A DNA stretch of 41,704 bases, from contig PAFA01000069.1 of assembly GCA_002700845.1 (NCBI GenBank), forward strand, positions 1 through 41,704, given 5' to 3'. The stretch's first letter is position 1, and every line of letters starts with the position of its first letter. The DNA comes from Phycisphaerae bacterium (GTDB lineage Bacteria > Planctomycetota > Phycisphaerae > Phycisphaerales > SM1A02). The notes beneath the pieces were generated by a model. The model ran no database searches, was not told where the DNA came from, and was given only the letters and a program-made list of their open reading frames with translations. Positions 13,567-37,763 of this stretch are shown in pieces. The position numbers and the translations under genes were made by a program.

Positions 13567-14694
13567 GTGGGGAAGAATCCATCGTGGATCATGCCGATGA
13601 TGGCTGCACAGATGGAACAATCCGCAGGAAACTTCTCAGCCGGCCCCTCCCGCATCCCTGACGCGGTCCGAGCCCTCGTGGCCCAAGATCTTCTGGATCT
13701 GGATGGTTCTGGTATCGGCTGTCTGGAACACTCGCACAGGGGCGAGGTCTTTGATGAGGTATTGAACCAAACAGAGAGGCTGGTACGAAGCGTATTGGAT
13801 GTACCAGATGCATTCGAAGTGCTCTTCCTGCAAGGTGGTGCCACACAGCAATTCAGCATGATCCCAATGAATTTCGGGACGGACACCCCTTCAGTTCACA
13901 CCAACACTGGCATCTGGACCGCAAAGGCCATACGAGCCGCCCAACAATTCGGCCCCACCAAGATCATCTTTGATGGTTCGGACAACAAGTTCCGAACCTT
14001 GCCCGAACCCACGAATCTCCTCATCCCGCAAGATGCATCATTTCTTCACACTTGCGCCAACAACACGGTCATGGGTACCCAATGGCCAAGCCTTCCTCAC
14101 GCCCCCAAGGAAATCCCACACCTCTGTGATATGAGTAGTGAAATTACCAGCCGGAGGATCGAGTGGGGTGACTTGGACATGGTGTACGCTGGATGCCAAA
14201 AAAACCTCGGCGTGGCTGGAACCGTACTGGTCATCATCAAAAAAGAGCTGCTAGCGAAGAGCAATGCCCCAACACCATTCAACTATCAAGAACATGCTGA
14301 CGCGAGTTCACGACTCAATACGCCGCCCACTTTCGGTATCGCAGTGATGCGGCGAATGCTTGAGTGGGTTCAAACCCAGGGTGGCGTCAAAGGTATGGCG
14401 GAGGCTTCCCAAAGGCGATCGAAAATGATTTACGACGCGATTGATGCAACCAATGGATTCTGGCGGCCTCATGCCTCGCCGAAATGCCGAAGCGTGATGA
14501 ACATCACGTGGCACGGACCAACCAGCAACGCAGAGTTGGATTTCCTTCAAAAAGCCTCCGAAATCGGATTCTCGGGGCTCAAGGGACACCGTTCGCTGGG
14601 TGGTCTCCGCGCTTCTGTCTACAACGCGGCCGATGAAGTGGCGTGCCGTAAACTGGCTGAATTGATTCAGTCCAGTGCGTCCGACTCCAAATAA
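13567..14694 (+). CDS. serC: Phosphoserine aminotransferase
   Basis: NFSAGPSRIPDAV; EHSHRGEVFDEVLNQTERLVRSVLDVPD; LFLQGGATQQFSMIPMNF; AGCQKNLGVAGTVLVI. Confidence 0.95.
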   Translation: MGKNPSWIMPMMAAQMEQSAGNFSAGPSRIPDAVRALVAQDLLDLDGSGIGCLEHSHRGEVFDEVLNQTERLVRSVLDVPDAFEVLFLQGGATQQFSMIPMNFGTDTPSVHTNTGIWTAKAIRAAQQFGPTKIIFDGSDNKFRTLPEPTNLLIPQDASFLHTCANNTVMGTQWPSLPHAPKEIPHLCDMSSEITSRRIEWGDLDMVYAGCQKNLGVAGTVLVIIKKELLAKSNAPTPFNYQEHADASSRLNTPPTFGIAVMRRMLEWVQTQGGVKGMAEASQRRSKMIYDAIDATNGFWRPHASPKCRSVMNITWHGPTSNAELDFLQKASEIGFSGLKGHRSLGGLRASVYNAADEVACRKLAELIQSSASDSK

Positions 14695-15137
14695 TCAAGC
14701 AAACCAAGCGTGGCAGAATCAACCAGATCCAAAACCAAATCAAACGCATCCTGCCCGTCGTAATACGGATCTGGAACCGCAGTTCGAGAAGAGTTTGGAT
14801 GGAATTCAAGCAAACGTCTTACCCGCGTAGGTTTAACCCAGGACAAAGAAATGACGTCCTTGAAATTGACCTCATCCATGACAACGATCAGATCAGCGCT
14901 CTGATCTGAAGAAGAAATTTTTCTTGCTCTGGAAAGAATTTGAACCCCGCGATGTTGAGCGGCTGACCTCATCCGAGCATCAGCCAATTCACCCTCGTGC
15001 CACCCACCTGTGCCTGCAGAATCAATATTGAATCGATCATCAGCGCCCCGCGTCGTGACGTGGTGGCGGAAGAATGCTTCTGCGGCGGGGGAACGGCAGA
15101 TGTTGCCCAGACACACAAAAAGGATATTTGGCATCAA
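14667..15137 (-). CDS. Low molecular weight protein tyrosine phosphatase (Wzb/Etp-like)
   Basis: ILFVCLGNICRSPAAEAFF active-site loop; VPDPYYDG catalytic Asp loop. Confidence 0.92.
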   Translation of the reverse strand: MMPNILFVCLGNICRSPAAEAFFRHHVTTRGADDRFNIDSAGTGGWHEGELADARMRSAAQHRGVQILSRARKISSSDQSADLIVVMDEVNFKDVISLSWVKPTRVRRLLEFHPNSSRTAVPDPYYDGQDAFDLVLDLVDSATLGLLDYLESDALD

Positions 15138-16372
15138 CTGGCCTTTAATGGGATAGCACGGCGGCGCGCAACCTTGATCGCATAGGTCACAATCGAGCAG
15201 AACACCACCAGTGCCCCGGCGTACACCACCCGACCTCGCAATTCTGTCGAGACGTCAAGCCATGCCAGCAAAACTCCAAGAGATGCGAAAAAAGCAGCGA
15301 TGCCATACAACGTCAAAACCGCGGGCTTTACCCCACCCAGTGATCGCTTCAGTTGATGATGAATATGGTCAGAGTCTGGATCGCTCATACGCTTCCCGGA
15401 CAATCGACGTCGCACGATAGCCATGAAGGTATCCAAAATAGGGACCGTAAACACCATCAGCCCCGCCAACACCACGTGGGTTTGACCTCGATCCCCCAGC
15501 ATCAAAATGATGGCCACAACCAAATAGCCCAACATGAGACTCCCAGCGTCTCCTAGGAAGATCGTGGCGGGATTGAAGTTGTGCGGCAAGAAGCCCAATA
15601 AGGCGCCGAGTCCCACAGCAGCCAATACGATCCGGGCAACTGCTACGGACTGCGAGGCTTCTACAGAGTCCCCCCCAGCTTCGGGAAGCAACATGATGCC
15701 GATCAAGGCCAGACCGATCAGAGCTATTGCCGTCACACCAGACAGAAGGCCATCAAGGCCGTCAAGCAGATTGGCGGCGTTGCACCCTCCCAGCACCATA
15801 GTCGCCACGAGTCCCGTTCCAACGATTGCATAGATATGAGAACTAAGTACCCAGTCCACTCCGGGGAAGAAGAAAAGCTGGGTATCGCCACCACCGAGAA
15901 TAGGATTCAAGACGCCCGCAGCAACTTGTACCCCTACGTTTTCAACCGCCAAAGCCGCAGCTGCCATCATCTGACCAGCAATCTTGAGCCGGGGATCCCA
16001 ACCGAACATGTCGTCACCCACCCCGGTGATAAAAATAACGATCAGTCCAAAAACCACCGAGATCGGTACGGAGCGATATTGATCGAGAGGTGCTTCGACA
16101 AAGGCGGCCGAAAGGATGCCCGCCATGATCCCGATGAAGACCGCGAGTCCACCCAGATAGGCAATAGGTTCAGTGTGTATCTTCCGGCCACCAGGCTGAT
16201 CAATCACACCCAAAGCAATGGCAAGCTTTCGAACAAGTGGTGTCACCAGTAGTGTCACAATAAATGCCACAAAGAACGAAGGGGCAAAAGCGTTTAACAC
16301 TTCCACAACGCCAACCGAGTTCAAAGTTTCGGCAATCGATGGGGTATCACTGGGTGGGTCTAAAGGATTCAC
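15134..16372 (-). CDS. Glycosyltransferase 4 / WecA-TagO-MraY family undecaprenyl-phosphate sugar-phosphate transferase
   Basis: Multi-TM; GCNAANLLDGLDGLLSG; NPATIFLGDAGSLMLGY; SDPDSDHIHHQLKR. Confidence 0.9.
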   Translation of the reverse strand: MNPLDPPSDTPSIAETLNSVGVVEVLNAFAPSFFVAFIVTLLVTPLVRKLAIALGVIDQPGGRKIHTEPIAYLGGLAVFIGIMAGILSAAFVEAPLDQYRSVPISVVFGLIVIFITGVGDDMFGWDPRLKIAGQMMAAAALAVENVGVQVAAGVLNPILGGGDTQLFFFPGVDWVLSSHIYAIVGTGLVATMVLGGCNAANLLDGLDGLLSGVTAIALIGLALIGIMLLPEAGGDSVEASQSVAVARIVLAAVGLGALLGFLPHNFNPATIFLGDAGSLMLGYLVVAIILMLGDRGQTHVVLAGLMVFTVPILDTFMAIVRRRLSGKRMSDPDSDHIHHQLKRSLGGVKPAVLTLYGIAAFFASLGVLLAWLDVSTELRGRVVYAGALVVFCSIVTYAIKVARRRAIPLKAS

Positions 16373-17334
16373 AATGCGGCCTCCATGCGGATGGAATCAG
16401 CGAGGTCCCGGATGGTCTCAGAAAGCGAACGTGATGGCTGAAGCTGGACAAGCTCGCGAGCCCGGGACAAGTCAGGAACACGTTCCTGCAAATCTTGAAA
16501 TCCACTTCCCCAAGCTTGGTCATAAGGCGTGATTTTGATCGGGGAGGAAGATTGAAGAACAGAGCGAACCATTTCAGCCAGCTCTAAAATTGAAATAGGT
16601 TCGTCATGACCAATATTGACCGGTAGACCTCTGGATTGGGGGGTCCGAAGAAGAACAGGCAATGAACCAACGACATCACGAACATCGGCAAAGCATCGAC
16701 GTTGGGTGCCATCTCCATGCACCTCGATGGGTGAGTTTTCAAGTGCTGCTTGAACGAATCGTGGCAGAACCATCCCCCACTCACCACGTTGACGGGGCCC
16801 CACCGTATTGAAGAACCGAACCACTACCGAAGGCAACTCATCTTCAAGCGCAAATGCCAGATGCTCGTCGACAGCCTTGCTGTGCGCGTACGACCATCGG
16901 GCGACAGTAGTAGATCCATAGACCGAGTCATCGGTTTCACGGAACGGACGGCCCTGACCTACACCGTAGACCTCACTGGTACTGGCCAGGAGTGTTGGGG
17001 TTGATGATGCGGCCAAGAATTGAAGCAATGAAGCTGTTTCAACCACATTGTTGATGATGGTCCCGAACGGATCCTCAACCACTTTCCGAACACCAACGGC
17101 TGCGGCCAGGTGGTAGGCCTCTGAAAACAATTCAGATGGATGGGTTTCAAGCCACTTTGCAACTGAAAGGTGAACAAACTCAACCCGATCGTGATCCGGA
17201 ATTTGCTGCCGACGCCCAGTGGAAAGATCATCGACGATCAAAACAGAGTGTCCCTCGGCCAAGAGATTCTCGACGAGGTGAGATCCAATGAAACCTGCGC
17301 CTCCAGTGACGAGAACTCGGGACACAGTGATCAA
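16369..17334 (-). CDS. NAD-dependent epimerase/dehydratase (extended SDR)
   Basis: VLVTGGAGFIGSHLVENLL; STSEVYG; WSYAHSKAVDEHLA (YxxxK); GDGTQRRCFADVRDVV. Confidence 0.9.
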   Translation of the reverse strand: MITVSRVLVTGGAGFIGSHLVENLLAEGHSVLIVDDLSTGRRQQIPDHDRVEFVHLSVAKWLETHPSELFSEAYHLAAAVGVRKVVEDPFGTIINNVVETASLLQFLAASSTPTLLASTSEVYGVGQGRPFRETDDSVYGSTTVARWSYAHSKAVDEHLAFALEDELPSVVVRFFNTVGPRQRGEWGMVLPRFVQAALENSPIEVHGDGTQRRCFADVRDVVGSLPVLLRTPQSRGLPVNIGHDEPISILELAEMVRSVLQSSSPIKITPYDQAWGSGFQDLQERVPDLSRARELVQLQPSRSLSETIRDLADSIRMEAAL

Positions 17335-19508
17335 GCCACCTCTGAATAATCACGCATAATGCGGAAGTTTGTCTTGAAGTAGCCACCGGTCTCTGTCCTT
17401 GCTCGGTTGAGAACAACACCAAAGACGTCCGTTCCGGTTTGCTTGACCGCATTGGCCAAGCGAACCAGTAAGCCACGTTCATCTTGACCGGCATGAACCA
17501 CCACCACCGCACCATCTGCCTTGGCCGCAAGGGTGACTGCATCACCCGCCGCCAGTGCCGGTGGGGCATCAAACAAGATCAGATCCCATTGTTCACGGGC
17601 TCTGTCAAGCAATTCATCCATTATTGGGGATCCCAAGCGGTCAACAATTCGTGAGCTTTCGGTACCCGCACCGACCAGATCAAAACCTGCTTCTGTTCGG
17701 ATAGCAACACTCGAGAGATCACCGGACCCACCAAGAGCATCACCCAATCCACTTCCCCCATCAGAGAGGCCAAGATGTTCCGCAAGGCCGGGTCGGCGGA
17801 AATCTCCGTCGATCACCAGGACTTTGCGTCCAGCAGCTGAAGCTGCCGCAGCGATATTCATGACGGTTCCGGTACAGCCCGTATTTGGAGAACAGGGGAA
17901 GAAAACTACTACCCGGCGTTCGGTTGGGGCACAACTTCGAGACAACTGAGTCCATGTTTGACGTAAGGATTCAGCAACCACGCTCTGTCCAGACTCCAGC
18001 ACGGCAGATTCGAACACGGAACATCCATCTGGATCTTCTTCGAGGTGTGGGATGACACCCAATGTGCGAAGACCAGGAACCAAGGACAAATCCTTAACGC
18101 CTTTGATTCGCTGGTCAGTGAATTCACGCAAGAAGACGATTCCGGACACCAGACCGGTCACCAGCAAAAATCCTAGAGGTATAACTATTTCAACTTTGGG
18201 GAATGCCATCTCACGCGGCAATGTTGCGCTACGAGCCAGAACGACCAGCCTCGCATCATCCCGAGAGCGGAACAACTTCAAATCACGAACCAATTGATCT
18301 TCACCATCACGTTTACGCTCGAGGTAATCACGACGGTTTTTTATATTTTCAATACGGCTTAGATTTGCCGCTTGCGACTGCAAGGACCCAACCTTCTCAG
18401 CGTATTCGTCTTGAAGACTCTGCGTAACAGCTTGCGTCTGCTCTAAGATCCTCATCGCCTGGCGAATATCCGCTCGCAAATTCCGCAGCACCACCTCTTC
18501 CCGGCGGGCCTCAAGCGCTCCTTCAGAAGAGTTGAGACGCTGGATTGTTCGCTGAAGAATCGGGCTTGAGGCATCCAGATATTGCTTTCGCAAGTAACTC
18601 AGCTCACGCTTGACGGATTCAACGGTTTGCACATGGACTGATACTGAAGGGTCCGCTTCAGCGGTTCGAACATCTTCTTCATCGTAAGAGAGAGTGCCGT
18701 CGAGCTTCTGCTGTGACTGAGCGACTTGAGTCTGCAGACTCTGTGTAGCTTGTTGATTGGAGTAGATCCGATCGGTCAACTGCTGAGCGGCAATAAGCTC
18801 TGGGCTGTATCTCGGGTCTTCAAGTGATGAAACGCCATTGTCTGTAATGAACTGCTGAAGTTCATCGCTGATGTCATCGATTTGCCGCCGGGTGTCAGCA
18901 AACTCACGACTGAACAGACCATCAATTGATTTGGTTCTATTTTCTTCCGCAGTCACGGTGCTTTCAAGATAAGCCTCCGACAGCGCTGCAATAATAGTTT
19001 GAGAATCTTCACGGCTCCCGGTTGAGAAGCTGATCCGGAAGAGCGCTGTTTTCGAAATTGGCGCCCGAGCCAAATCATCTTCCAACTCGTCTACTGCCTC
19101 TTCAATACGAGGCCCGTCCTCATCGACGTACTTCGATGTGAACCAATTTGATCGCTGCACGGCCCGAGAACGTACTGCCGCCTTGAGAACCTCTCGGTCC
19201 ATCAAGCGTGAAAGCTCTGTATTGGCTCTGCGTTCAATGTCGTCATCATCCAGTTCTTTGGCCGCGCCAATTTCCGTTGCATCTTGGAGACCAGAACGGA
19301 TCTCAAATAACGCCTCGGATCGATACTTTGGAAAAAGTACGGAAAGCCCAACGTAAGAAACACCACCAACACCAATACCGACAAAGCCGGCAAAAACCAA
19401 AAGCAAGAGGTGCTTCCTTAGGATCCGGATTGGATCCACAGAAACGCCTGCTTCAGATGGAGATGGTGCTGAGAACTGTTCCTCAACCTTCGATTCTGAC
19501 GTTTGCAT
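17331..19508 (-). CDS. Wzz-like chain-length determinant fused to a BY-kinase-like (Wzc/CpsD) ATPase domain with a degenerate Walker A
   Basis: Two TM segments flanking a coiled coil; VLVIDGDFRRPGLAEHLGL (Walker A'), LILFDAPPAL (Walker B); P-loop position reads CSPNTGCTGTVMNIA. Confidence 0.88.
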   Translation of the reverse strand: MQTSESKVEEQFSAPSPSEAGVSVDPIRILRKHLLLLVFAGFVGIGVGGVSYVGLSVLFPKYRSEALFEIRSGLQDATEIGAAKELDDDDIERRANTELSRLMDREVLKAAVRSRAVQRSNWFTSKYVDEDGPRIEEAVDELEDDLARAPISKTALFRISFSTGSREDSQTIIAALSEAYLESTVTAEENRTKSIDGLFSREFADTRRQIDDISDELQQFITDNGVSSLEDPRYSPELIAAQQLTDRIYSNQQATQSLQTQVAQSQQKLDGTLSYDEEDVRTAEADPSVSVHVQTVESVKRELSYLRKQYLDASSPILQRTIQRLNSSEGALEARREEVVLRNLRADIRQAMRILEQTQAVTQSLQDEYAEKVGSLQSQAANLSRIENIKNRRDYLERKRDGEDQLVRDLKLFRSRDDARLVVLARSATLPREMAFPKVEIVIPLGFLLVTGLVSGIVFLREFTDQRIKGVKDLSLVPGLRTLGVIPHLEEDPDGCSVFESAVLESGQSVVAESLRQTWTQLSRSCAPTERRVVVFFPCSPNTGCTGTVMNIAAAASAAGRKVLVIDGDFRRPGLAEHLGLSDGGSGLGDALGGSGDLSSVAIRTEAGFDLVGAGTESSRIVDRLGSPIMDELLDRAREQWDLILFDAPPALAAGDAVTLAAKADGAVVVVHAGQDERGLLVRLANAVKQTGTDVFGVVLNRARTETGGYFKTNFRIMRDYSEVA

Positions 19509-19547: not shown

Positions 19548-22500
19548 TTAGGGGGATAAAATCGACTCCACTTCCAAAATCATGGCCTCAAATTCATCGC
19601 CCTCAGCATCATCGCGGTTTTTTGCACTTGCGAGGACTGAACCGGCCTGTTGAGCATCACCATCCTTGGCCAAGGCCAAGGCGTAGCGAACATGGGTCAT
19701 GGCCCCCGCACCACGGCGAATGGCTTGAGCAAGCGTTTGCCTGGCGGCTTGAGTATCTCCTAAGGCCAGCTGCACCGAGCCCAAGGTGTCCAAGATGGTG
19801 GGGTTTGTGGGATTGGCGGCCACGGCCTGCTCCGCCAGCGGCAATGCTTGTTGGTGCTCCCCCAAGTTCACGGACAAGATGTACGCAATATTGTTCGCCG
19901 TAAGGGGCTGATCGGGATTCAGAGAAAGACTCTTCCTCCAGGCTGAAATCGCGGTTTCAGGCTGGTCGGCGGCAATCGCAATATTTCCCGCGGCCAGCCA
20001 CACTTGGAACGCTTCTGGGTCGTTCAAATCCTCAGCCAACTTCGCGCTCTGCTGAGCATCTTCGATGGCACCGTCAAAGTCTTTCTCAGTGAGTTTTACT
20101 CTTGCTAAGCCGTTCAAAAGAGGCCATGACAAAGAGTCAGCCCCACTCACTTCTCTGGCAAACCTCGCAATTTCGGCCGAACGGCCCGAACCAAAATAGG
20201 TGCTGAGCTGCAATGGGAATCGAGCCATCCCCATCTTGGGAGCTCCATTCGAAACTTGTCGCTCAAATGCAACATAGCACTCACGAAGTACTTTCCGAGA
20301 CTCTTGCTCTCGCCCTTTTTCCAAAAGGGCTTTCGCACGCATCGAGAGCAAATCTGGGTTGTCTTGGACCCATGCCTTTTCTTTCGCAGTAAATCGAATA
20401 ATCAACTGCCAATCAGGACTGGGGACCGCGACTTCAGAAGCCATACGACGTGCAAACCGTGCTTCATTAGGATCCTGATCGAAAGCATTACGAAGGTATT
20501 CTCGAGCCTGAACAATTTGACCTGTAACACCAGTCAAAAGTTCGCCAGCCTGAGACAACCAATCTGCAGACCGTTTGCCGGAGGGGTACGCATCCGCACC
20601 AGATGAGGCCACCGAGGCAGCAGCAACTCGATCACCAAGCTGCAAATACTGCCGAATGATTCTCGAACGAAGAACATCGTTCTTTGGAGTGCGCTCCAAT
20701 TGTCCAACCAACGTTCGAATCGCTTCTGCACGTTCTCCGCCTGCACCCAGCAGCTGGAATCTTGCAGTGCTGACCGCCGGTGAATTTGGAGCCAACGCTT
20801 CCGCCGAAGCGACCGCGGCTGAGGCCTCATCGTAGCTTTCTCGAGTCCCTACTCGTCGGTAACGTTCGGTCAGGATGGATGCTTCAAGTAGCCGAGGACC
20901 AACGTCTTGAGGCAGCAGCTCTTTCGATTCAGCCAATACCTGCAAGGCCAATGCTTCCTCAGAGGAACCATCTTCGTCACTTCTAAATTTTTTCTCAGAA
21001 ACTCCAGCGTAGATCAAAGCTTGAACCAAGGACCGGGAGGCAAGATCGCGAGTGTCTTCAGTCTGGGGAAGCCCATCCAATACCACCTGAGCCTCATCAG
21101 TGCGATTTGATCGAGCAAGACACTCAGCGTACTGTTCTAAAATTGCATATTGAGGAAGTTCAAACTTATCCAAGCCTGGCCGGAATGTGTTTGGACGCAA
21201 GAGCTGCAGAGTTTTGCCAAGGCCCTCATCCGGCAACAACGCAATAAGTTCTGCATAGACATCCGCCGCGTTGGCAAATTGGTTGTTCGCCATAAGAATC
21301 GCTGCTGAGGCAAAGAGTGCAGATTGATCCGGGGTTTGGCCATCTGGATATGAGAGGGTTTCAACTGCTTTTCTAAATTGTCCAATACCGGAGTACATCT
21401 GAGCAGCCAACAGACGAGTCATCAATTTTGACTCCTGGTTTTCGGCTTGGCTCATTTCCTGAAGGAGTAAGCCAATTGCCTCCTGCGCCTGGCCCTGATC
21501 TTTAAGAATTTCAGCCTTGTACGCGTTTATCAACAACAGGGTTTTACCGTCGTCATCTTTGGCCCTCAGCTGATCCAACAAATTATCTGACCGACTCATC
21601 CACACCTTCTGCGCTTCAGCCAGAAGGGCATTCTGCCGTGCGGCTGAAAGTTGATTAAATCGAGCAGGCGTGTAAGGGAATTCAGGGTTCAACAAAATCG
21701 CTGACTCGACGCTCGGAGTCGTGGTCGCAAGGAGCCGAGCAAATTCGAGTGTGTTCTGAGTGTCATCCGGGTTCACTGAATACCGTGAGGCACGAACCCG
21801 AAGAAGTTCCAAGGTGTCGCCGGCTCGAAGAGCAATATTCAGCCAAGCTTCTCGAATGGCAATATTGCTTGGCGAGAGGCGTGACGCCGTCCGCAAGACA
21901 TCAACTGCCTCTTCATACTTGCCCAACTGAACCAGCAAGGTTGCGTAACTCCGACCGATGCTGACGCTGTTGGACTGAATCTCCCAAGCTTCAACAAAGT
22001 GTCGTTCAGCGTTTGCGTACTCACCAAGATTGGCCTCTGATTGAGCCAGTTGGGCCAGGATCTGCCCATCAGTTGGTATTTCTTCAGTGGCACTCGAAAA
22101 AGCGTCACGAGCCCCAACCCAATCACGTCTGGCTGCTGCCAACCGACCGCGATAGGTGTACCCAGAAGCCTGGTCCAAGTCATCCTGAACTGCTCTTTCT
22201 ACCAATGATTCTGCCGAAGACCAGTCTTCGGCAACAATTGCATCCACGAATTGAAATTCAATGAAGCCTGGGTCGTCAGGGAAATTTATGCTTGCCGCAT
22301 CTGAACGCTTTTTGATCTCATCCTGAATGCGCTGGCCTAAAGAATCATCTGAAGATGATTTGGATGAACCCAAAATACCCTTCAAGCCTCGCAAAATTGC
22401 GACGGCACGTTCCGGCTCATTCAATCCTTTGTCACTCGTATGAAAAAGGACAATGGCATCGATGGGATCAGAGGTACTTGCGATACTGCGAAGCTCTCTG

Positions 22501-24497
22501 AATATTTCATCCACCCGCGGGGACGACGAGGCAAAGCCATCCATAACTTCCAAAGCTCGTTCATTTTGGTTGTTCGCGACCAACATCCTCACGTAGGTAT
22601 TCACCACGCGGAATTCCTCAGGGAACCTGCTGTAGAGGTCAGACATCTCAAGGAGCGCGTTTTCGTATTCACCCGAATCAAACCGTAGAGCGACATCACG
22701 AACCTGGGTCTCCAAGGGCGAAGATGGGCCGCCCCCGTTTAGCGCATCTTTGGCACCCTGTATCGCTTCGAAAGCAATGTCGGCGACAATATCGGCATCA
22801 ACCATTGCTTGACCCAGCGCGACAACGTTTTCCCATTCGCGATTAAGGATTAACAGTTGGAGTTTATTCTGCAGGAGAGTTGGTTCATTTGGCACCTGAT
22901 CAAGCGCTTGGTCCAGTTGACGTAGGGCCAAGCCAATTTGATCTAATTCTCGATTCACTTGAACCGAATAGAGCAGAAGCCGGACATTTGGAGCCCCCCC
23001 AGCAAGGTTCTGGCTGCGCAAAATATCGTCAAAAATCTTTGCGGATTCCCGAAGACTTTGCTTGGTATTGCGCGCATAGGCTTCCTTGGCTTTGATCTCC
23101 AGAAATACAAGATTGCTGTCCGGATCGGTAACGAAAGCTTGAGCCTCGGAACGCAAGGAGGCGATCTGCTCAACGGCATCTTCACGGTCCAATGAACCAC
23201 GCACCAATTGATCCATGACCAAGCCGACCTGAATGCGATACATCGAGAGACGAAGATCATCAAACGAAGCGGCAAAAAGTCCCGTCTTTGGACGCTCACG
23301 GGACATGAAGTCTGCGACCACTTTGGAAGCTCCGATGCGATCTTGTTCTTCAGTGCTCTGACTCAGAATTTCGGCCAAGTTTTGCTCTACGAAATATGGA
23401 GCGTCAGAAAAACCTTGGAGGTTTCGGAATGCTTGTACCAACTGAGCAGTGAGGTCAGGCTCTCCCATGACTGAAAGCGACCGGTAGCATTCTTGGATGT
23501 CAGATATTTCCATCATCAGTGGCAATTCCAGAATGGCGCGCTCACGAAGAGAACCATCAGAAACCTGGACTTCGGGACAAATTTCTTGCACCCGATCAGA
23601 GTTAAGAGCCTTCGCTGCATGAAGACGACCAATCAGCCACAAGGAACGGCCATGTCCAACTCCGTTTTCTGGAACTGGCAAAGCAAAGGCTTCTCCCACC
23701 AAGGATCTCGCATGGCTGGCCAACAATCTCTCTGAGCCTTGCGAAGGAACGTCAGCGGTGGAACTCGCGTCAAAAATCTCCCGGAGTTTTCCTGCATATT
23801 CAAGGATGTAACTGCGGTCATTGTCCAAAACCGCCTCTTCGAGTCGCAGCGACCATGCTCCGAGTGCGATGCCATAATCAATGGCCAGCGGATTGTCTTC
23901 CAAACGATTCTGAATGAGTTCAAAAGCCTCGTCGCGATCACGGCTTTTTAGTTCTGACCATCGGACACGGTTTAAACGGCTAACGGCAACCCACCGTTCA
24001 GCAAAGACTTCGTTGTCCACGTTACGAACACCGGATGCGTCAGCGATCTCTTCAACCATCTCCATAAGACTCGACGATCGAGATGCTTTTGCATCGGAAT
24101 AAACTGCTTGCACCAACGCGCGAGATCTCTCAGTGAGTTCAGGATGGTTCTCAGCCCCCCACTTCAAGGAGCCGATCCAGAAGCTATAAAACTCGTTGGC
24201 CTCGACCCTGGAACCGGGAGAAGTAAGCAAAATCGTACGCTGCAGGTCCGTCAGATAGCCAAGATCACGAGGCTCCTTACCGAGTGCACGCCCGTAGTTC
24301 CTTCGCGCCTCCCGAAGCTGACCCGCAGCTTCAAGCTGCTTCGCCTTCTGATGAATGGCTGTCGCACTACGAAGAACTAGGAAGTAATACGCTCCACCCA
24401 AGCCACCAACCAAACTCATTCCGACAATTGAAATGAGCAAGAGAAGCTTAATATTCAAAGCGCCGACTCGAGCTTGCGAAATATGCTGTCGCATCAA
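19548..24497 (-). CDS. Very large TPR-repeat protein (1649 aa) with an N-terminal TM anchor, EPS/exosortase locus
   Basis: N-terminal TM IKLLLLISIVGMSLVGGLGGAYYFLVL, many TPR-like helices (e.g. AGQLREARRNYGRALGKEP; LGEYANAERHFVEAWEIQSNSVSIGRSYATLLVQLGKYEEAVDVLRTASRLSP). Confidence 0.85.
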   Translation of the reverse strand: MMRQHISQARVGALNIKLLLLISIVGMSLVGGLGGAYYFLVLRSATAIHQKAKQLEAAGQLREARRNYGRALGKEPRDLGYLTDLQRTILLTSPGSRVEANEFYSFWIGSLKWGAENHPELTERSRALVQAVYSDAKASRSSSLMEMVEEIADASGVRNVDNEVFAERWVAVSRLNRVRWSELKSRDRDEAFELIQNRLEDNPLAIDYGIALGAWSLRLEEAVLDNDRSYILEYAGKLREIFDASSTADVPSQGSERLLASHARSLVGEAFALPVPENGVGHGRSLWLIGRLHAAKALNSDRVQEICPEVQVSDGSLRERAILELPLMMEISDIQECYRSLSVMGEPDLTAQLVQAFRNLQGFSDAPYFVEQNLAEILSQSTEEQDRIGASKVVADFMSRERPKTGLFAASFDDLRLSMYRIQVGLVMDQLVRGSLDREDAVEQIASLRSEAQAFVTDPDSNLVFLEIKAKEAYARNTKQSLRESAKIFDDILRSQNLAGGAPNVRLLLYSVQVNRELDQIGLALRQLDQALDQVPNEPTLLQNKLQLLILNREWENVVALGQAMVDADIVADIAFEAIQGAKDALNGGGPSSPLETQVRDVALRFDSGEYENALLEMSDLYSRFPEEFRVVNTYVRMLVANNQNERALEVMDGFASSSPRVDEIFRELRSIASTSDPIDAIVLFHTSDKGLNEPERAVAILRGLKGILGSSKSSSDDSLGQRIQDEIKKRSDAASINFPDDPGFIEFQFVDAIVAEDWSSAESLVERAVQDDLDQASGYTYRGRLAAARRDWVGARDAFSSATEEIPTDGQILAQLAQSEANLGEYANAERHFVEAWEIQSNSVSIGRSYATLLVQLGKYEEAVDVLRTASRLSPSNIAIREAWLNIALRAGDTLELLRVRASRYSVNPDDTQNTLEFARLLATTTPSVESAILLNPEFPYTPARFNQLSAARQNALLAEAQKVWMSRSDNLLDQLRAKDDDGKTLLLINAYKAEILKDQGQAQEAIGLLLQEMSQAENQESKLMTRLLAAQMYSGIGQFRKAVETLSYPDGQTPDQSALFASAAILMANNQFANAADVYAELIALLPDEGLGKTLQLLRPNTFRPGLDKFELPQYAILEQYAECLARSNRTDEAQVVLDGLPQTEDTRDLASRSLVQALIYAGVSEKKFRSDEDGSSEEALALQVLAESKELLPQDVGPRLLEASILTERYRRVGTRESYDEASAAVASAEALAPNSPAVSTARFQLLGAGGERAEAIRTLVGQLERTPKNDVLRSRIIRQYLQLGDRVAAASVASSGADAYPSGKRSADWLSQAGELLTGVTGQIVQAREYLRNAFDQDPNEARFARRMASEVAVPSPDWQLIIRFTAKEKAWVQDNPDLLSMRAKALLEKGREQESRKVLRECYVAFERQVSNGAPKMGMARFPLQLSTYFGSGRSAEIARFAREVSGADSLSWPLLNGLARVKLTEKDFDGAIEDAQQSAKLAEDLNDPEAFQVWLAAGNIAIAADQPETAISAWRKSLSLNPDQPLTANNIAYILSVNLGEHQQALPLAEQAVAANPTNPTILDTLGSVQLALGDTQAARQTLAQAIRRGAGAMTHVRYALALAKDGDAQQAGSVLASAKNRDDAEGDEFEAMILEVESILSP

Positions 24498-25312
24498 TAT
24501 GACTCCGTGTCTGCGTTTAGCGCTCGCCAGTCCGGCAAGCTACGCATGAGATAGGGCAATACCAGTTCAATGAATTCTCGACTTGCATCGACAAATTCCG
24601 AACGGTCTTGACGTCGCTTCAACTGAGTTACCAGTTGAACCTTGCAGTAGTACGCCATTTTTTGAGTTGGGTCAAATGCCAGTCTTTTGACTGACTCAGG
24701 ACTTGCCGCGAAGTTACCGTTGGCGACAAAAAAGTACCCGCCCCACAGGACAACCCCTGGCTGGTCTGAACGCACAAAGCTACTGGTTCTTAAATCGAGT
24801 TCACCTGTCGGCACAAAGACATCTGAAAGACGTCCGGTCAGGGGATCTTTAATGCCGACCTGGAACCAATTTTCGTCAATTTTCTTCCACTCGGGCGGGA
24901 GGATGCCAAGTGGAATATTTTCTGGGAGCTGTTCCAGATCGAAGCCGCCAGTCGCAACCAAGCATCGGTCCGGGACATGCGGCACTGCATCAATCATCCC
25001 GGTGTAATACGCCATGTGCAACTGAAGGTATCGCCCATCAGCATGCTCGTATGAGCGGGTAAGGAACTGATCGGTCCCAAGTTCTTCTATAAACTCCTCG
25101 GACAATCGCTGGTCATCGCCAACGGCTTCCCACTCCCCAAGGACCCGTGGCACATCAGCCAAACCACGGCGAATAGGTACCGCCTCTTTCTTGAGATGGA
25201 TGTTCAAAGCATCCATGGCAAAGCTCATGCCAATCCGAGAGAAAACAATGAGTCCAACAACAACCAGCATCGCGCGCCTCTGAGTCGAAGTCATGGTGAT
25301 GCTAGAAATCAT
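24494..25312 (-). CDS. EpsI-like exosortase-associated protein (DUF3485-like)
   Basis: LGEWEAVGDDQRLSEEFIEELGTDQFLTRSYEH...LQLHMAYYTGMIDAVPHVPDRCLVATGGF; adjacent to exosortase; ATGA overlaps on both sides. Confidence 0.8.
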   Translation of the reverse strand: MISSITMTSTQRRAMLVVVGLIVFSRIGMSFAMDALNIHLKKEAVPIRRGLADVPRVLGEWEAVGDDQRLSEEFIEELGTDQFLTRSYEHADGRYLQLHMAYYTGMIDAVPHVPDRCLVATGGFDLEQLPENIPLGILPPEWKKIDENWFQVGIKDPLTGRLSDVFVPTGELDLRTSSFVRSDQPGVVLWGGYFFVANGNFAASPESVKRLAFDPTQKMAYYCKVQLVTQLKRRQDRSEFVDASREFIELVLPYLMRSLPDWRALNADTESY

Positions 25313-26241
25313 GACGCGGCTCCCGAGGCTGGATCTGGCTCTTCGACAATCAACCTCTTCAACAGTTCCGCAACTCCCAAAAAGAGCAGCCAAGCCGGAA
25401 CCAAGAGAAAAACCCCCACCATTGTGTGCACTTCACCCGAACCCAAGTCCTGATCAATAAGACTGAGCAAACCAAGAACAAGCACCCGAACGATGTTGAC
25501 GATCAGGGCCACTGGGAATGCCGAAAGCACCAAAATGATCCGTTGCCACCACCGATGAAATGAGACAAAAGCCATTGTCGTTCCGATGGCCAAAAACGCC
25601 ATCAGCATCCGCATGCCACTGCACGCCTCAGCAACATTGAGTGGGATAACTTTCAATGTCATGTCATCGCTCATCATGTAGATGCGAATCACATTGCCTT
25701 CGATTTCTGCATCCAAGGTCCCAACGACCAAAAGAAGGTGCGCCCCAAATGCTGTTATTGACTGCATGGGATGCGTGACGTAGGCCATCAGTCGCTCAGA
25801 AATCGTTTGCCCAAAAACGAGCAAAAAGATCATGGGAAAAATCAAGTGCCGGATTGCTGCTGGCCCCAGCAGTACCAAGCCAAACCCACCGAGGCTCAAG
25901 ACAACACCAGCCCCACGGAGATTGTGATGATGCAAAACTGGCGGACCAAAGATGCACACTGCATACCAGATCAACCCAAGGACCAAGGGCAGTAAGCCCC
26001 ACCAGCAGACGCGAACACCTTTTGCTTGTATTTGCGGCCATGCTCGACGAATGAACCAGGCTGCAATCAACGGAGCGACAAGGGTATGCCCCCAGTCATC
26101 CGTCTCTTGTATGGCCCATTCAAATTGACGAACCAAGAAGTCCCAGTAATACGCCAAAAAAGACAGTGCAACCACACCCAACACCAAGAGGTCTCCCGCT
26201 GCAGGGGATGTACTTTTTGGGTGGTCAGGAGTGTCTTTCAT
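25309..26241 (-). CDS. Exosortase (EpsH/Xrt family)
   Basis: Multi-TM; Cys in NVAEACSGMRMLMAF, Arg in VNIVRVLVLG, His in GEVHTMVGVFLLVPAW: exosortase C/R/H triad. Confidence 0.9.
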   Translation of the reverse strand: MKDTPDHPKSTSPAAGDLLVLGVVALSFLAYYWDFLVRQFEWAIQETDDWGHTLVAPLIAAWFIRRAWPQIQAKGVRVCWWGLLPLVLGLIWYAVCIFGPPVLHHHNLRGAGVVLSLGGFGLVLLGPAAIRHLIFPMIFLLVFGQTISERLMAYVTHPMQSITAFGAHLLLVVGTLDAEIEGNVIRIYMMSDDMTLKVIPLNVAEACSGMRMLMAFLAIGTTMAFVSFHRWWQRIILVLSAFPVALIVNIVRVLVLGLLSLIDQDLGSGEVHTMVGVFLLVPAWLLFLGVAELLKRLIVEEPDPASGAAS

Positions 26242-26338: not shown

Positions 26339-27718
26339 TTAGGAATCAGAGGGGAACCCGAACACGTCGTTGCCAAAATTCCGGTCCAACCTCAGGCTAA
26401 ATCCATAATTCGAACGAAGCCCTTCGCGAAGAATGAACATAGGGCGATTCCAGAATCCGGTGCCCACAATGATTTGGTCGCTGGGTCGCAGCACCACATC
26501 AGGTTCCGTTCCATTTCGTATACCGGCCAGATCCAATCGGATAATAGCTTCGCGATCCTGGCCAACAATTCGGCGTAAATCAACCTTGTCTGGCTCCGCC
26601 AAAGGGCCCAGACCACCAGCAGAAGTAATGGCACGTGACAGCGTGAAATACGGCTCGTTCAGCGGAATGCCATATGGCCCCGGGCGAGCGATTTCACCAT
26701 CTATGTAGATATTCCCGTCACCGACCCGTTCCACCAAAATGGAGTCACCTGGGCGAACAACGATGTCAAGGCTGCTATCACCTCTGCGAAGCTCTTGCAG
26801 AGGTATGCGTAAGACTCGGTCAATGAAGACCGGAGATTCGTCTTGAACAACACCGGCCAAATGTTGGCTGGCCCCAAGCTTCTGCCATGCTCCAGAAGAA
26901 GTATCCCATCGCCATGGTGATGCACCGATCTCATTCGGAGTTTGGACTTCAGGGAGCGTGCTCTCGGTCAAAGCATCGACATCAATGAAGGTGTCCTCGG
27001 TGGCTCCAATTGCCGCCCCAGCTCCACCTTCGAGGCGGTCCAGAAGACCATCCAAATCCAGAGGGACTGAACGATCAAATTCGGGTTCAGATTCGATTGG
27101 CTCGTCCAATTGGACTCGTCGACGCACAACGGCGTATCGCGCGTTGTCCAAAATGCCGCCGGCCTGACTTAGCGCTTCCAAGAGACGCAGGTCAGATCGC
27201 ACCAATGGATAGACATTGGGTTGCGCGATAAATCCGTTCACCGTAAATCGGAACCCTGTGCGTTGCACCAAAGCAGCATCAACTTGCGGAGCTCCCAGCA
27301 ACCGACCGTACGCCGCACGAACGGATGGATTGAGTTCCTCAGGAAGCAAACCTTGGACTTCCACCAGCCCAATCTCTGGAAGCTGGACGTATCCAGACTG
27401 ATCAACCACCCGATCAACGGTCACTGGCTGGCCAGGCTGATAGACATCAAATGCTGTCACGGTGACCACGTCTCCGGGAACAATGCGATAGTCGCTGAAA
27501 TCGTTCGCGATGAGATCCTCGCGTGAAGGCGTCTCGCCAACGATTTGCTCACCGATCTCGATGGCATGGATCCGACGCAAAATTGGAAGCGTCGTGGGCT
27601 GATGCTCCCAACGACCCGTTACCGAGGGGTCAACAAAGGAATCTGTCTGACAACCAGTCAGGCCGACCAGCGTCAAACCCATTCCATAGCAAGCCAACCC
27701 GGAGGAAAAAATACGCAT
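26339..27718 (-). CDS. Polysaccharide export outer-membrane lipoprotein (Wza-like; poly_export and SLBB)
   Basis: Lipobox LVGLTGC; DYRIVPGDVVTVTAFDVYQPGQPVTVDRVVDQSGYVQLPEIGLVEVQGL; two SLBB-like segments. Confidence 0.87.
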   Translation of the reverse strand: MRIFSSGLACYGMGLTLVGLTGCQTDSFVDPSVTGRWEHQPTTLPILRRIHAIEIGEQIVGETPSREDLIANDFSDYRIVPGDVVTVTAFDVYQPGQPVTVDRVVDQSGYVQLPEIGLVEVQGLLPEELNPSVRAAYGRLLGAPQVDAALVQRTGFRFTVNGFIAQPNVYPLVRSDLRLLEALSQAGGILDNARYAVVRRRVQLDEPIESEPEFDRSVPLDLDGLLDRLEGGAGAAIGATEDTFIDVDALTESTLPEVQTPNEIGASPWRWDTSSGAWQKLGASQHLAGVVQDESPVFIDRVLRIPLQELRRGDSSLDIVVRPGDSILVERVGDGNIYIDGEIARPGPYGIPLNEPYFTLSRAITSAGGLGPLAEPDKVDLRRIVGQDREAIIRLDLAGIRNGTEPDVVLRPSDQIIVGTGFWNRPMFILREGLRSNYGFSLRLDRNFGNDVFGFPSDS

Positions 27719-27888
27719 GGAATTGTTATCGGCCTCATTAGACGCGCACCACCAAGATTTCTGAGGGCTAAGATGTGGATGCTTTGAGCGAATCTGCCCA
27801 AGATCGAACACTGGCCCGTCACCCCAGACCACTTGGGGGAGATACCGCCAAAGATCGACGTGGTGTCCAAGTCGCGCTCAGCGGAATG

Positions 27889-29857: not shown

Positions 29858-30769
29858 TCAGCGGGCCAAAAATACGTCTCGAGGGTCAATCAATGCGAAT
29901 TTTGGCAGCGTGGTGTGTCCTCGCGGCACCCAGACTGCATCAACCCGACCCTTGTTGATCCAAACTGGACGACGCGCTGAGCGAACCGACAAATCACCAA
30001 GAAGCAAATGAGAGCATCGGCCAGAGTGAGACAAAGCCCCACTCATGGGCCCAGGAGCGGGAACCTGGAGCAACTGAGCGACCTGAAGCGGGTTGGGATC
30101 ACCGACAATTGGACGCTGGGGATTCAAACGATCAAGTCGAATTTTCCCTGGACCAACCTGCACCGAGTAGAACGAAATACCCTTCTTGGCCCCCCGGCAG
30201 CATGGACAGTTCACACGATGATGAGGACAGTATCCGTCATCCACGAACTGGCGAACGGTGGCGAGGGACGGCACCACATTCCAACTGGCCGAAGGGACCT
30301 GACGTCGGTGGTCGCTGGCAAACGACTCAACCGCCGTTCCCAGTGCCCGGATATTGGCCCCACACAACTCATCCCGGCCGTGCAATTTTGCGCCTCGGCC
30401 GAGAGCCAGAAAGATAGAAGTCGCCAAGAGCAGACTGGCTGCGACACCAAAAAGGTCAGGGAAACGGAACTGGAATCGACCTCCCCCACTCACTTCAAGA
30501 GCAGGAGAAAAAGACACGCCGGTCGAAGCTGATGGGACAGCAGATTTGATCCGTGCCAACGTGGCCTGCACCAAAATATCTTCTGCCGGCGGGGTTTCAC
30601 GAAGTGCTTCTAATGGGTGCAGTTGAACAAGAAGATTCTTGGCTTCCTCGGACTTTGGGTCCGAGTCGGAGTCCATCAACTCATCCAAACCTGGGACTTC
30701 GTGGAAGGATTCGTCATCAGAATAGCCTTCACGCTCACCGTCAAATGGGGCTTTCGGCGTATCGCTCAT
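29858..30769 (-). CDS. Anti-sigma-like TM protein with a pseudopilin (DUF1559/H-X9-DG-like) C-terminal region
   Basis: ATGA-coupled to an upstream ECF sigma; TM LFGVAASLLLATSIFLALG; LCGANIRALGTAVESFASDHRRQVPSA and HSGRCSHLLLGDLSVRS. Confidence 0.6.
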   Translation of the reverse strand: MSDTPKAPFDGEREGYSDDESFHEVPGLDELMDSDSDPKSEEAKNLLVQLHPLEALRETPPAEDILVQATLARIKSAVPSASTGVSFSPALEVSGGGRFQFRFPDLFGVAASLLLATSIFLALGRGAKLHGRDELCGANIRALGTAVESFASDHRRQVPSASWNVVPSLATVRQFVDDGYCPHHRVNCPCCRGAKKGISFYSVQVGPGKIRLDRLNPQRPIVGDPNPLQVAQLLQVPAPGPMSGALSHSGRCSHLLLGDLSVRSARRPVWINKGRVDAVWVPRGHTTLPKFALIDPRDVFLAR

Positions 30770-31434
30770 TGGTCGGCCTCCTGTCCCCAAAGCTCTCCGA
30801 ACGTTCGCACGGCAGCGTGAAGTCGGCTCTTAACTGTGCCGACGGGGATCCCAAGAATGTCTGCAACTTGTGCGTAAGGCATGCGTTGAAAGTAGGTCAA
30901 CAACAAGATTTCACGTTGAGTGTCTCCAAGTCGATCAACCACGGCTCGAACTTGTGACACGCGCTCCGCCCCATCAAGTGGCTGCTGAGGGTCTTGGGTG
31001 TCAGCTGGAATCAAATCCGCCATGGTCACCGAATCACCATCGGAGCCAACTGGTGTGTCCAAAGAAACACTTGGACGCCGACGGAGCCAACGCCGTGCGT
31101 CGCGGGCCTTGTTGGTGGCGATGGTGTAAAGCCAAGGCTTTAAACGACGATCGACATCAAAGCTGGCGGCGGAAATATGGATTTGCAAAAACGTCTCTTG
31201 AAACACATCCTCAGCCAGAGCGCGAGATCCAGTGAATCGAACCAAGTATCCGAACAATTCATCTCTGTGACGGCGAATGAGCTCTTCAATTGCACCAGAA
31301 TGGCTTTCAACATGGAGAGCTACCAAACGTTCATCAGATTCGGATCGAAGATCAACAGGCACTTTGGTCGCCATGCTATCGGTCAACCGTGCAGGCTTGG
31401 CAAATGGAAGCGGGTTGATCGCAAAGCCAGACAT
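30766..31434 (-). CDS. ECF-type RNA polymerase sigma factor
   Basis: ELFGYLVRFTGSRALAEDVFQETFLQIH; RLGDTQREILLLTYFQRMPYAQVADILGIPVGTVKSRLHAAVRTF. Confidence 0.9.
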   Translation of the reverse strand: MSGFAINPLPFAKPARLTDSMATKVPVDLRSESDERLVALHVESHSGAIEELIRRHRDELFGYLVRFTGSRALAEDVFQETFLQIHISAASFDVDRRLKPWLYTIATNKARDARRWLRRRPSVSLDTPVGSDGDSVTMADLIPADTQDPQQPLDGAERVSQVRAVVDRLGDTQREILLLTYFQRMPYAQVADILGIPVGTVKSRLHAAVRTFGELWGQEADQ

Positions 31435-35855: not shown

Positions 35856-37763
35856 GTGACATTGTTTTTTACATTGCTGATGGGTCTTTTCGATGGTCTT
35901 TCGTTCGATTTGGCGGAAAACCTGTGCTTCGAGACCACCCTGTCAGATCACACCCAAAGAGCCGAGTGGCCCGCTTACATCACCAGCGAACAGCATGGGG
36001 CAGGCAAACTTTTACGTATCCAAGCCAACTCGGGGGCGGTGGCATTTCGACTGGATGGCCCAAAGGGGTCCACCTCCGGTCCCGCAACACTTCGAATTCG
36101 AGCGCAAGTCACCAACCTTGGCGCCGATCAAATCAACTTGTTTGGTCTTCGCGGTGAATTGTCTTCGACCCACACCATTACCACCGATGGCGAACATGAG
36201 ATTCGCCTGGAAGTCCCAGAAGGCTCAACCCCTCCATCCCTTTGGTGCCAGATCCTGCGGCAACATCTCGCGGACGAAGTCACACCACGAACTCCCGTTC
36301 CAAATCCAAGGCTTCGGCTTGATCTCATGTCCGTTGAAGTATGGCCACGGCGTGAACTCCGAATTCTTGGTACTGATCGATCAATCATTGCTCCAAACAC
36401 CGAAGTCCTTTTGGAAGTGGAGGGGCTTGATCCGAGCCTCGCTCCGGTTGTGATCACTGAAGTTCTTCCCAGTGGCGAAGTTGTGCAAGAAACCCTTACC
36501 GAAGTGCTCTTTCCTCTGCAAATATTGAGGACGTTCAACGGACTCGGCCGTTACAAGCTAGAAGTCAGACAAGCAGATCTCCAAGTTGAGAGAGAATTGT
36601 GCATCGTTCCTCCCAGTCCACTGTCCAGTACACGCGTTGCATTCTTTGATCCGCCAAAGTCATTTGGGGATTTGCACCGGTTCCCAAGCACACCCCCGGA
36701 AGGCTCTTCAGTAAGCAGGCCCGATCCCCGTGCCCAACGAGTTGTCATTGAACGTGACCGCACTCAAATTGTGGACCGCTCCAATCTTGTGGCAAACCTC
36801 GATGTGGAACCATCACTGTCATGTGAGCCCTTAGAACTCAATGCAGACGCATTTACCCAAGCTGCTCAACACTTGTTTGCCAATCCAAGACATGTTGTTC
36901 TGGCTCCAGCCAATGCCACAACCGGGCCGAATGCTGCTCGCTGGCACACGTTGACTTGGCTTTCACAGAGCACGATCCAACCGGCCGGTGTTCTTCCTGG
37001 CTACGGCAGTCGTCAACTTTTTCGAAGAGACGGCAAGTTGTATGCATGGCTAGACCAACCTTCATTCCCGGTTGTGCTTCCGGTGACCAATGAAAGCCAA
37101 CGTTCCAACGCTGAAGGGCATATCGAAGCCAGAGGTTTGGCCGCCGGAACCATCCCGTCCGGAGCGCGCAACACCGTGGTTGGTCCATTGCGCGAACCTG
37201 AAGTTCTGGTCCTCCGGCAGTTGAATTTTGTAGAACCGGTACAACTCACACGAAACCAAGAACTTGGGGCCTTCCTGCGAATTCCAAACCCACGGGACGC
37301 ACTGTGGCGTGGAACAATTCAAACCAAACGCGAAGGCCCGTTGCGTTTGCGACTCACCACAAACGAACTCGAACTGCTTCCTGGCCAAGAAATCAAGCTC
37401 CCGGTCAGCGTCGAATGGCCCGGTCCGTTTGTAGAACATGGTCGACACCCAATCAACTTGGAGATCAAGGAGGCTGATGGTTCCAGTATCACTGCAACTC
37501 TTGAAGTTGAAGTCACTTTTCCGGGACTCCAAGTTGAATTGTCTGCGGACAATCGCCTCACCATGATCACGACGAAAACCATGGACACTGAACTCACTTG
37601 GTGGAACGAAAGTACAAAAATCAAACGAGAGCAACGCCAGCGTCTGGCACAAGGACAACGCATTGAACGCGTCATTCCCGAATTGGCGACCCACGTTGAT
37701 GTGATCTCAGGTATCCGGACGATCCGCTACACCCTTCAAGGAATGCGTGAAGGCGGCGTTTGA
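35856..37763 (+). CDS. Hypothetical secreted or cell-envelope protein, 635 aa
   Basis: Long ORF with hydrophobic N-terminus MTLFFTLLMGLFDGLSF; beta-rich composition; no recognised domain. Confidence 0.65.
   Translation: MTLFFTLLMGLFDGLSFDLAENLCFETTLSDHTQRAEWPAYITSEQHGAGKLLRIQANSGAVAFRLDGPKGSTSGPATLRIRAQVTNLGADQINLFGLRGELSSTHTITTDGEHEIRLEVPEGSTPPSLWCQILRQHLADEVTPRTPVPNPRLRLDLMSVEVWPRRELRILGTDRSIIAPNTEVLLEVEGLDPSLAPVVITEVLPSGEVVQETLTEVLFPLQILRTFNGLGRYKLEVRQADLQVERELCIVPPSPLSSTRVAFFDPPKSFGDLHRFPSTPPEGSSVSRPDPRAQRVVIERDRTQIVDRSNLVANLDVEPSLSCEPLELNADAFTQAAQHLFANPRHVVLAPANATTGPNAARWHTLTWLSQSTIQPAGVLPGYGSRQLFRRDGKLYAWLDQPSFPVVLPVTNESQRSNAEGHIEARGLAAGTIPSGARNTVVGPLREPEVLVLRQLNFVEPVQLTRNQELGAFLRIPNPRDALWRGTIQTKREGPLRLRLTTNELELLPGQEIKLPVSVEWPGPFVEHGRHPINLEIKEADGSSITATLEVEVTFPGLQVELSADNRLTMITTKTMDTELTWWNESTKIKREQRQRLAQGQRIERVIPELATHVDVISGIRTIRYTLQGMREGGV

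Follow-up and report, generated by a model that had tools for sequence, protein, structure and literature searches.

The window, the whole stretch of 41,704 nucleotides that was analysed, is one entire contig (C84); the metagenome-assembled genome to which it belongs spans 1.77 Mb and is 78% complete. It carries an exopolysaccharide export locus with an SLBB-domain outer-membrane export (OPX) protein, a WecA-like transferase and an exosortase, and a PCP-2a-like co-polymerase with a kinase-like domain lies within it. The genes are:

14667..15137 (−): low-molecular-weight (Wzb-type) protein tyrosine phosphatase, LMW-PTP (Pfam LMWPc, E 2e-35)
15134..16372 (−): WecA/MraY-type polyprenyl-phosphate sugar-1-phosphate transferase, chain initiation (Pfam Glycos_transf_4, TIGR02380; syntenic)
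16369..17334 (−): NAD-dependent sugar-nucleotide epimerase/dehydratase (syntenic)
17331..19508 (−): PCP-2a-like protein with a lysine-less BY-kinase domain (725 aa, ATG start)
19548..24497 (−): 1649-aa TPR-repeat protein, between the exosortase module and the co-polymerase
24494..25393 (−): EpsI-like/DUF3485 exosortase-associated protein (syntenic)
25309..26241 (−): exosortase, EpsH/Xrt family (Pfam Exosortase_EpsH, E 1.8e-40)
26339..27832 (−): outer-membrane polysaccharide export (OPX) protein with SLBB domains (syntenic)

A TPR protein occupies this place in nearly every locus of the order, and several loci elsewhere in the class have one there too. Three long ORFs elsewhere in the window, at 985–2178 (−, 397 aa), 29858–30790 (−, 310 aa) and 35856–37763 (+, 635 aa), have no Pfam match at E 1e-5.

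The co-polymerase, whose boundaries are exactly those given in the earlier note, has the canonical PCP-2a layout. Hydropathy peaks at residues 35–53 and 441–459 predict two transmembrane helices (TM1 and TM2) that flank a coiled periplasmic part, followed by the kinase-like domain (~490–705) and a tail (706–725). NCBIfam TIGR01005 matches residues 107–707 (E 1.9e-28), and TIGR01007 matches residues 540–707 (E 1.4e-23) at 83.5 bits, under its cut-off of 108.05 bits. The C-terminal domain also matches TIGR03029 (E 2.3e-23) and the Wzc model (E 8.4e-21), both under the curated cut-offs. VpsO, CapA1B1 and Wzc are the best matches of the 725-aa protein in the PDB, and the closest named records, with 82–86% identity across all 725 residues, come from Phycisphaerae metagenome-assembled genomes, one of them filed as Pirellulaceae. 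AlphaFold modelling of the kinase-like domain, with five sequences as input, gave a mean pLDDT of 43.

Active-site motifs of the kinase-like domain

Four motifs define the nucleotide site and the tail:

17862..17888 (−): degenerate P-loop P541-N-T-G544-C545-T546-G-T-V549, with Cys545 in place of the Walker A Lys
17790..17822 (−): Walker A' VLVIDGDFRRP, residues 563–573
17553..17582 (−): Walker B LILFDAPPAL, residues 643–652
17334..17387 (−): C-terminal tail GGYFKTNFRIMRDYSEVA, residues 708–725, with conserved Y710 and Y721 in place of a Tyr-rich cluster

The P-loop reads FFPCSPNTGCTGTVMN, with the core SPNTGCTG. HMMER alignment places C545 at Wzc position 540, which is Lys in the wild type and Met in the solved K540M chain (9exo), bearing out the earlier note's assignment of a Cys to the Walker A Lys position; the canonical GK[ST] is thus absent. 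Thr543 takes the place of the acid in the [ED]GK motif. Walker B keeps its Asp (D647). The same note had called Walker A' and Walker B intact, and both motifs read as it claimed, but the canonical DxD of the window genus (DGD) is atypical, most orthologs being DxN. The oligomer-interface motif EX2RX2R retains E513 and R516, and its third Arg, present in 34% of the order and 100% of canonical rows, is W519. Only two Tyr stand among the last 25 residues, as had also been noted, against a median of 6 in 40 for the canonical set of the phylum. The protein thereby combines BY-kinase homology with the loss of a catalytic residue.

The cytoplasmic domain contains four Cys (496, 526, 539 and 545), all invariant in the five genus members, and two of them fall within the P-loop (PCxPxTGC). 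A metal or redox role is conceivable.

Conservation in the order and origin in the class

GCTG is present in all five members of the genus, encoded at the Cys by TGT in the window and by TGC in its relatives, and kinase-domain dN/dS is ~0.04–0.06 in the genus comparisons with estimable dS. In a first survey of 60 related genomes, every ortholog found lacked the Walker A Lys. A wider sample of the order identified an ortholog in 242 of 251 genomes, and the regions fetched yielded 169 distinct domains. Position 545 is T in 74 of these, A in 47, V in 18, S in 14, C in 8, G in 4, N in 3 and I in 1. Neither K nor R occurs there in any of the 169 distinct orthologous domains of the window's order, which is far beyond chance, and none carries an acidic residue at 543. 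Gly544, Thr/Ser546 and Asp647 are present in 169/169 and Asp567 in 163/169, while position 569 is Asn in 162 and Asp in 7. Tail residues Tyr710 (168/169) and Tyr721 (169/169) are similarly constant. The lysine position has been freed while neighbouring positions stayed frozen.

In a metagenome-assembled genome of 78% completeness, one might suspect a sequencing error or an inactivating mutation that arose recently in a single strain. Either is for practical purposes ruled out by the GCTG of four other members, taken from independent assemblies, by strong purifying selection and by the absence of Lys from all orthologs of the order; close homologues with GKS/T, which the earlier note had named as evidence against its reading, are missing from the 169 domains. 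A special role of Cys was likewise dismissed as a general explanation: Cys is merely one of eight residues used at 545 (T, A, V, S, C, G, N and I), so no particular Cys chemistry is required, and it recurs solely in the window genus and part of family f4.

Three well-assembled genomes of the order (G048, G060 and G393) are missing the lysine-less protein. In G048, a canonical GEGKS BY-kinase adjoins an SLBB gene (L064) and is a possible replacement.

Across the class, a match was found in 198 of 198 sampled genomes, nearly all of them strong. Outside the order, many families have Lys (e.g., GDGKTT) and others Arg (GDGRTT), while Lys is absent from f9 (GGGAST) and f13 (DCGTTT). The GDGRTT orthologs, which keep the acidic residue (L110, L112, L119, L123, L127–L130, L132, L139, L141, L142 and L144), constitute a second kind of P-loop variant at the same locus in several other families of the class. 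Walker A' is DxN in the class orthologs of other orders, whereas the canonical BY-kinases of the phylum combine K with DxD, and GK[ST] is intact in the canonical paralogs that related genomes carry. The gene order OPX/SLBB, exosortase, EpsI-like, TPR and co-polymerase has the same spacing in most sampled loci of the order and is also found in Lys-containing loci from other orders, a synteny that supports orthology of the Lys-containing and lysine-less proteins.

In the tree, the window's order forms one fully supported clade beside f11 (K, DxN) and f9 (A, DxN). Parsimony counts three losses of Lys. Several independent losses were nevertheless dropped as a firm claim, because a single Lys-less clade survives an AU test (p 0.58), and the number is put at one to three. 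The median number of tail Tyr falls from 6 (K, DxD) through 4 (K or R, DxN) to 2 (Lys-less), a graded series from which it follows that Walker A' was weakened first and that the loss of the Lys/acid pair and of most tail Tyr came afterwards. The second Walker A' Asp changed to Asn before the Lys loss, close to the root of the class if not at it, and the DxD of the window genus within a DxN group is most simply a reversal. Position 543 is acidic in 0/76 Lys-less rows and in 55/60 K/R rows, with too few independent pairs for a test.

Basic residues have been gained in the order at positions 524 (85%) and 620 (80%). K/R524, part of the interface helix, and R620, located where the PPNP loop used to be, are lineage-specific gains found mainly in f1–f4.

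The linked phosphatase and the search for another kinase

The LMW-PTP reported for this cluster is intact, with the catalytic signature CLGNICRSP...DPYY, and the puzzle of its substrate is both real and broader than the window. In 14 of 23 genomes from the window's family (G000–G003, G006, G007, G010–G013, G015, G017, G021 and G022), such a phosphatase gene follows the co-polymerase gene on the same strand, a few kb downstream, and it is similarly placed in G026. Linkage was found in 0/14 genomes from other families of the order, and none of the sampled Lys-containing loci has an LMW-PTP within ~9 kb. The linkage therefore arose in a lineage without the kinase Lys. Its target may be some other substrate, or else tail Tyr that an unrelated kinase has phosphorylated.

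By their scores, the remaining AAA_31-type matches of the window genome are ParA/Mrp-like ATPases and not BY-kinases, and all fall short of the TIGR01007 search threshold. The lysine-less protein is the sole TIGR01007 match in three other genomes of the genus (90–91% complete) and in several family members that are at least 93% complete. No second BY-kinase turned up in the four genus genomes or in many complete relatives, which makes it unlikely that a BY-kinase serves as a heteromeric partner.

Function of the lysine-less co-polymerase

We consider it probable that this protein is the PCP-2a co-polymerase of a class-wide, exosortase-linked exopolysaccharide locus and that the BY-kinase domain on its cytoplasmic side has become a fixed pseudokinase, forming a ring without self-phosphorylation. 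The order-wide fixed loss, the purifying selection, the orthologous locus and the lack of a canonical BY-kinase in the genus make this the best-supported reading. A pseudokinase serving as a structural chain-length regulator had been proposed for the window protein; that part is supported, but the state is not specific to it. The domain has kept its P-loop Gly, its Mg-ligand Thr/Ser, the Asp of Walker B and the first one of Walker A', and the leading E..R of the helix at the oligomer interface; it would still fold and pack as a ring-forming BY-kinase domain. No phosphate would be transferred to its own tail. Instead, the degenerate site of a neighbour may accommodate the conserved GGYxxxN...Y tail, whereby the ring would resemble the non-phosphorylated octamer of Wzc K540M, and ring opening would be set by nucleotide occupancy or by partner binding (Wzy, OPX or the TPR protein) rather than by a kinase/phosphatase cycle.

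Some features sit uneasily with a fixed pseudokinase. The residues of the Mg-nucleotide pocket are invariant and not obviously needed by a purely structural scaffold, and the two tail Tyr with an intact neighbouring LMW-PTP hint at tyrosine phosphorylation somewhere. Current PCP-2 models hold that cycles of tail phosphorylation are needed for assembly and disassembly around the polymerase, and export in the canonical models requires such cycling, not a locked octamer.

One rival reading is a kinase or ATPase that is active without Lys, the charge being supplied by another basic residue (a WNK-like relocation) or by a neighbouring subunit, and the LMW-PTP dephosphorylating the two tail Tyr. The invariant Mg-ligand Thr/Ser and Walker B Asp, the first Walker A' Asp in 163/169, the nearly invariant tail Tyr, the adjacent intact phosphatase and the basic residues gained at 524 and 620 all fit such an enzyme. 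However, R620 and K/R524 occur mostly in f1–f4, are missing from many f5/f6 members and are absent from the Lys-less f9/f13 rows; this patchiness outside f1–f4 argues that they were no replacement for Lys at the time of its loss, and neither is a simple WNK-like compensation. The change from DxD to DxN and the loss of tail Tyr indicate eroding kinase function, and substitution of Lys540 abolishes Wzc phosphorylation (PMC8285477). We therefore regard an active enzyme as unlikely, although the earlier note's alternative of an ATPase with altered chemistry may still apply, given that the Mg-binding Thr/Ser and both key Asp are kept in the sequence. Alternatively, another kinase could modify Tyr710 and Tyr721 of the pseudokinase in trans and the adjacent LMW-PTP reverse it, outsourcing the kinase of the assembly cycle. 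Two Tyr are indeed kept while the requirements for self-phosphorylation erode, and the phosphatase is linked in a family without Lys, but the genus and many complete relatives lack a second BY-kinase, and f2–f6 share the two Tyr without a linked phosphatase. Phosphorylation in trans is accordingly quite improbable.

Nucleotide binding is the least certain part of the fixed-pseudokinase reading: with the Mg-ligand Thr/Ser and the Asp residues still in place, the Lys-free pocket may continue to bind nucleotide, a property that would set the group apart from EcpK. A tentative extension, which we hold as possible but doubtful, is that PCP-2 rings across the order are nucleotide-gated and non-phosphorylating, with Mg-nucleotide held via the invariant Gly, Thr/Ser and Asp, its binding and release opening and closing the co-polymerase, and the two-Tyr tail serving as a docking latch.

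One close parallel is Wzc, which has the same architecture, and its K540M mutant, substituted at the same residue (PMC8285477, PMC11986026). Mutation of Lys540 leaves no phosphorylation and gives stable octamers with tails in the neighbours' active sites, and tail phosphorylation takes the ring apart (PMC8285477, PMC11986026); ring formation without self-phosphorylation is hence to be expected of a natural lysine-less homologue. Wild-type Wzc differs in its Lys, DxD, Tyr-rich tail and need for phosphorylation cycling, making the window protein its natural lysine-less counterpart. EcpK and HfsB establish that PCP-2 systems can function with a BY pseudokinase (PMC12004946). EcpK, which acts with EpsV in Myxococcus xanthus, has a BY-kinase fold without catalytic residues, is needed by the PCP-2 of a Wzx/Wzy exopolysaccharide pathway and is proposed to be phosphorylation-independent, but it stands alone and has lost all Walker motifs and tail Tyr (PMC12004946). 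In the window protein, the domain shares one chain with the PCP, and the other elements of the nucleotide pocket (A', B, P-loop Gly and Thr) are still there, as are Y710 and Y721.

Fused PCP-2/BY pseudokinases are known, among them PssP2 of Rhizobium (PMC4182512) and SMc01795, Mlr8439 and VV1_2305 (PMC12004946), in which a single polypeptide joins a PCP to a non-catalytic BY-kinase domain. Walker A, A' and B are reportedly all absent from PssP2, as is the Y-cluster (PMC4182512), whereas the window protein has mainly lost the Walker A Lys/acid pair, a loss fixed across the order with Lys-containing orthologs in sister orders. The XrtA/PEP-CTERM-linked BY-kinases (NCBIfam TIGR03018, matched by 32/32 members of set A1, and TIGR03029, EpsG) likewise place a BY-kinase domain in an exosortase-linked exopolysaccharide locus; the window protein falls far under their equivalog cut-offs (72 of 230.65 bits), and its domain is PCP-fused and lacks Lys. 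BY pseudokinases are thus already known (EcpK, HfsB, PssP2), and the order-wide, fused lysine-less form is a new variant. We found no description of a planctomycete lysine-less family in the open-licence literature.

Throughout one bacterial order, then, a conserved export locus operates with a fused kinase domain devoid of the catalytic Lys and of most substrate Tyr. Automatic annotation of the lysine-less proteins as tyrosine autokinases is probably wrong, and a concrete question is raised as to what the linked LMW-PTP acts on. Sister orders provide graded intermediates, from K with DxN through R with DxN to no Lys, and this natural series allows a direct test of whether phosphotransfer or the nucleotide-dependent ring is what counts in the BY-kinase domain.
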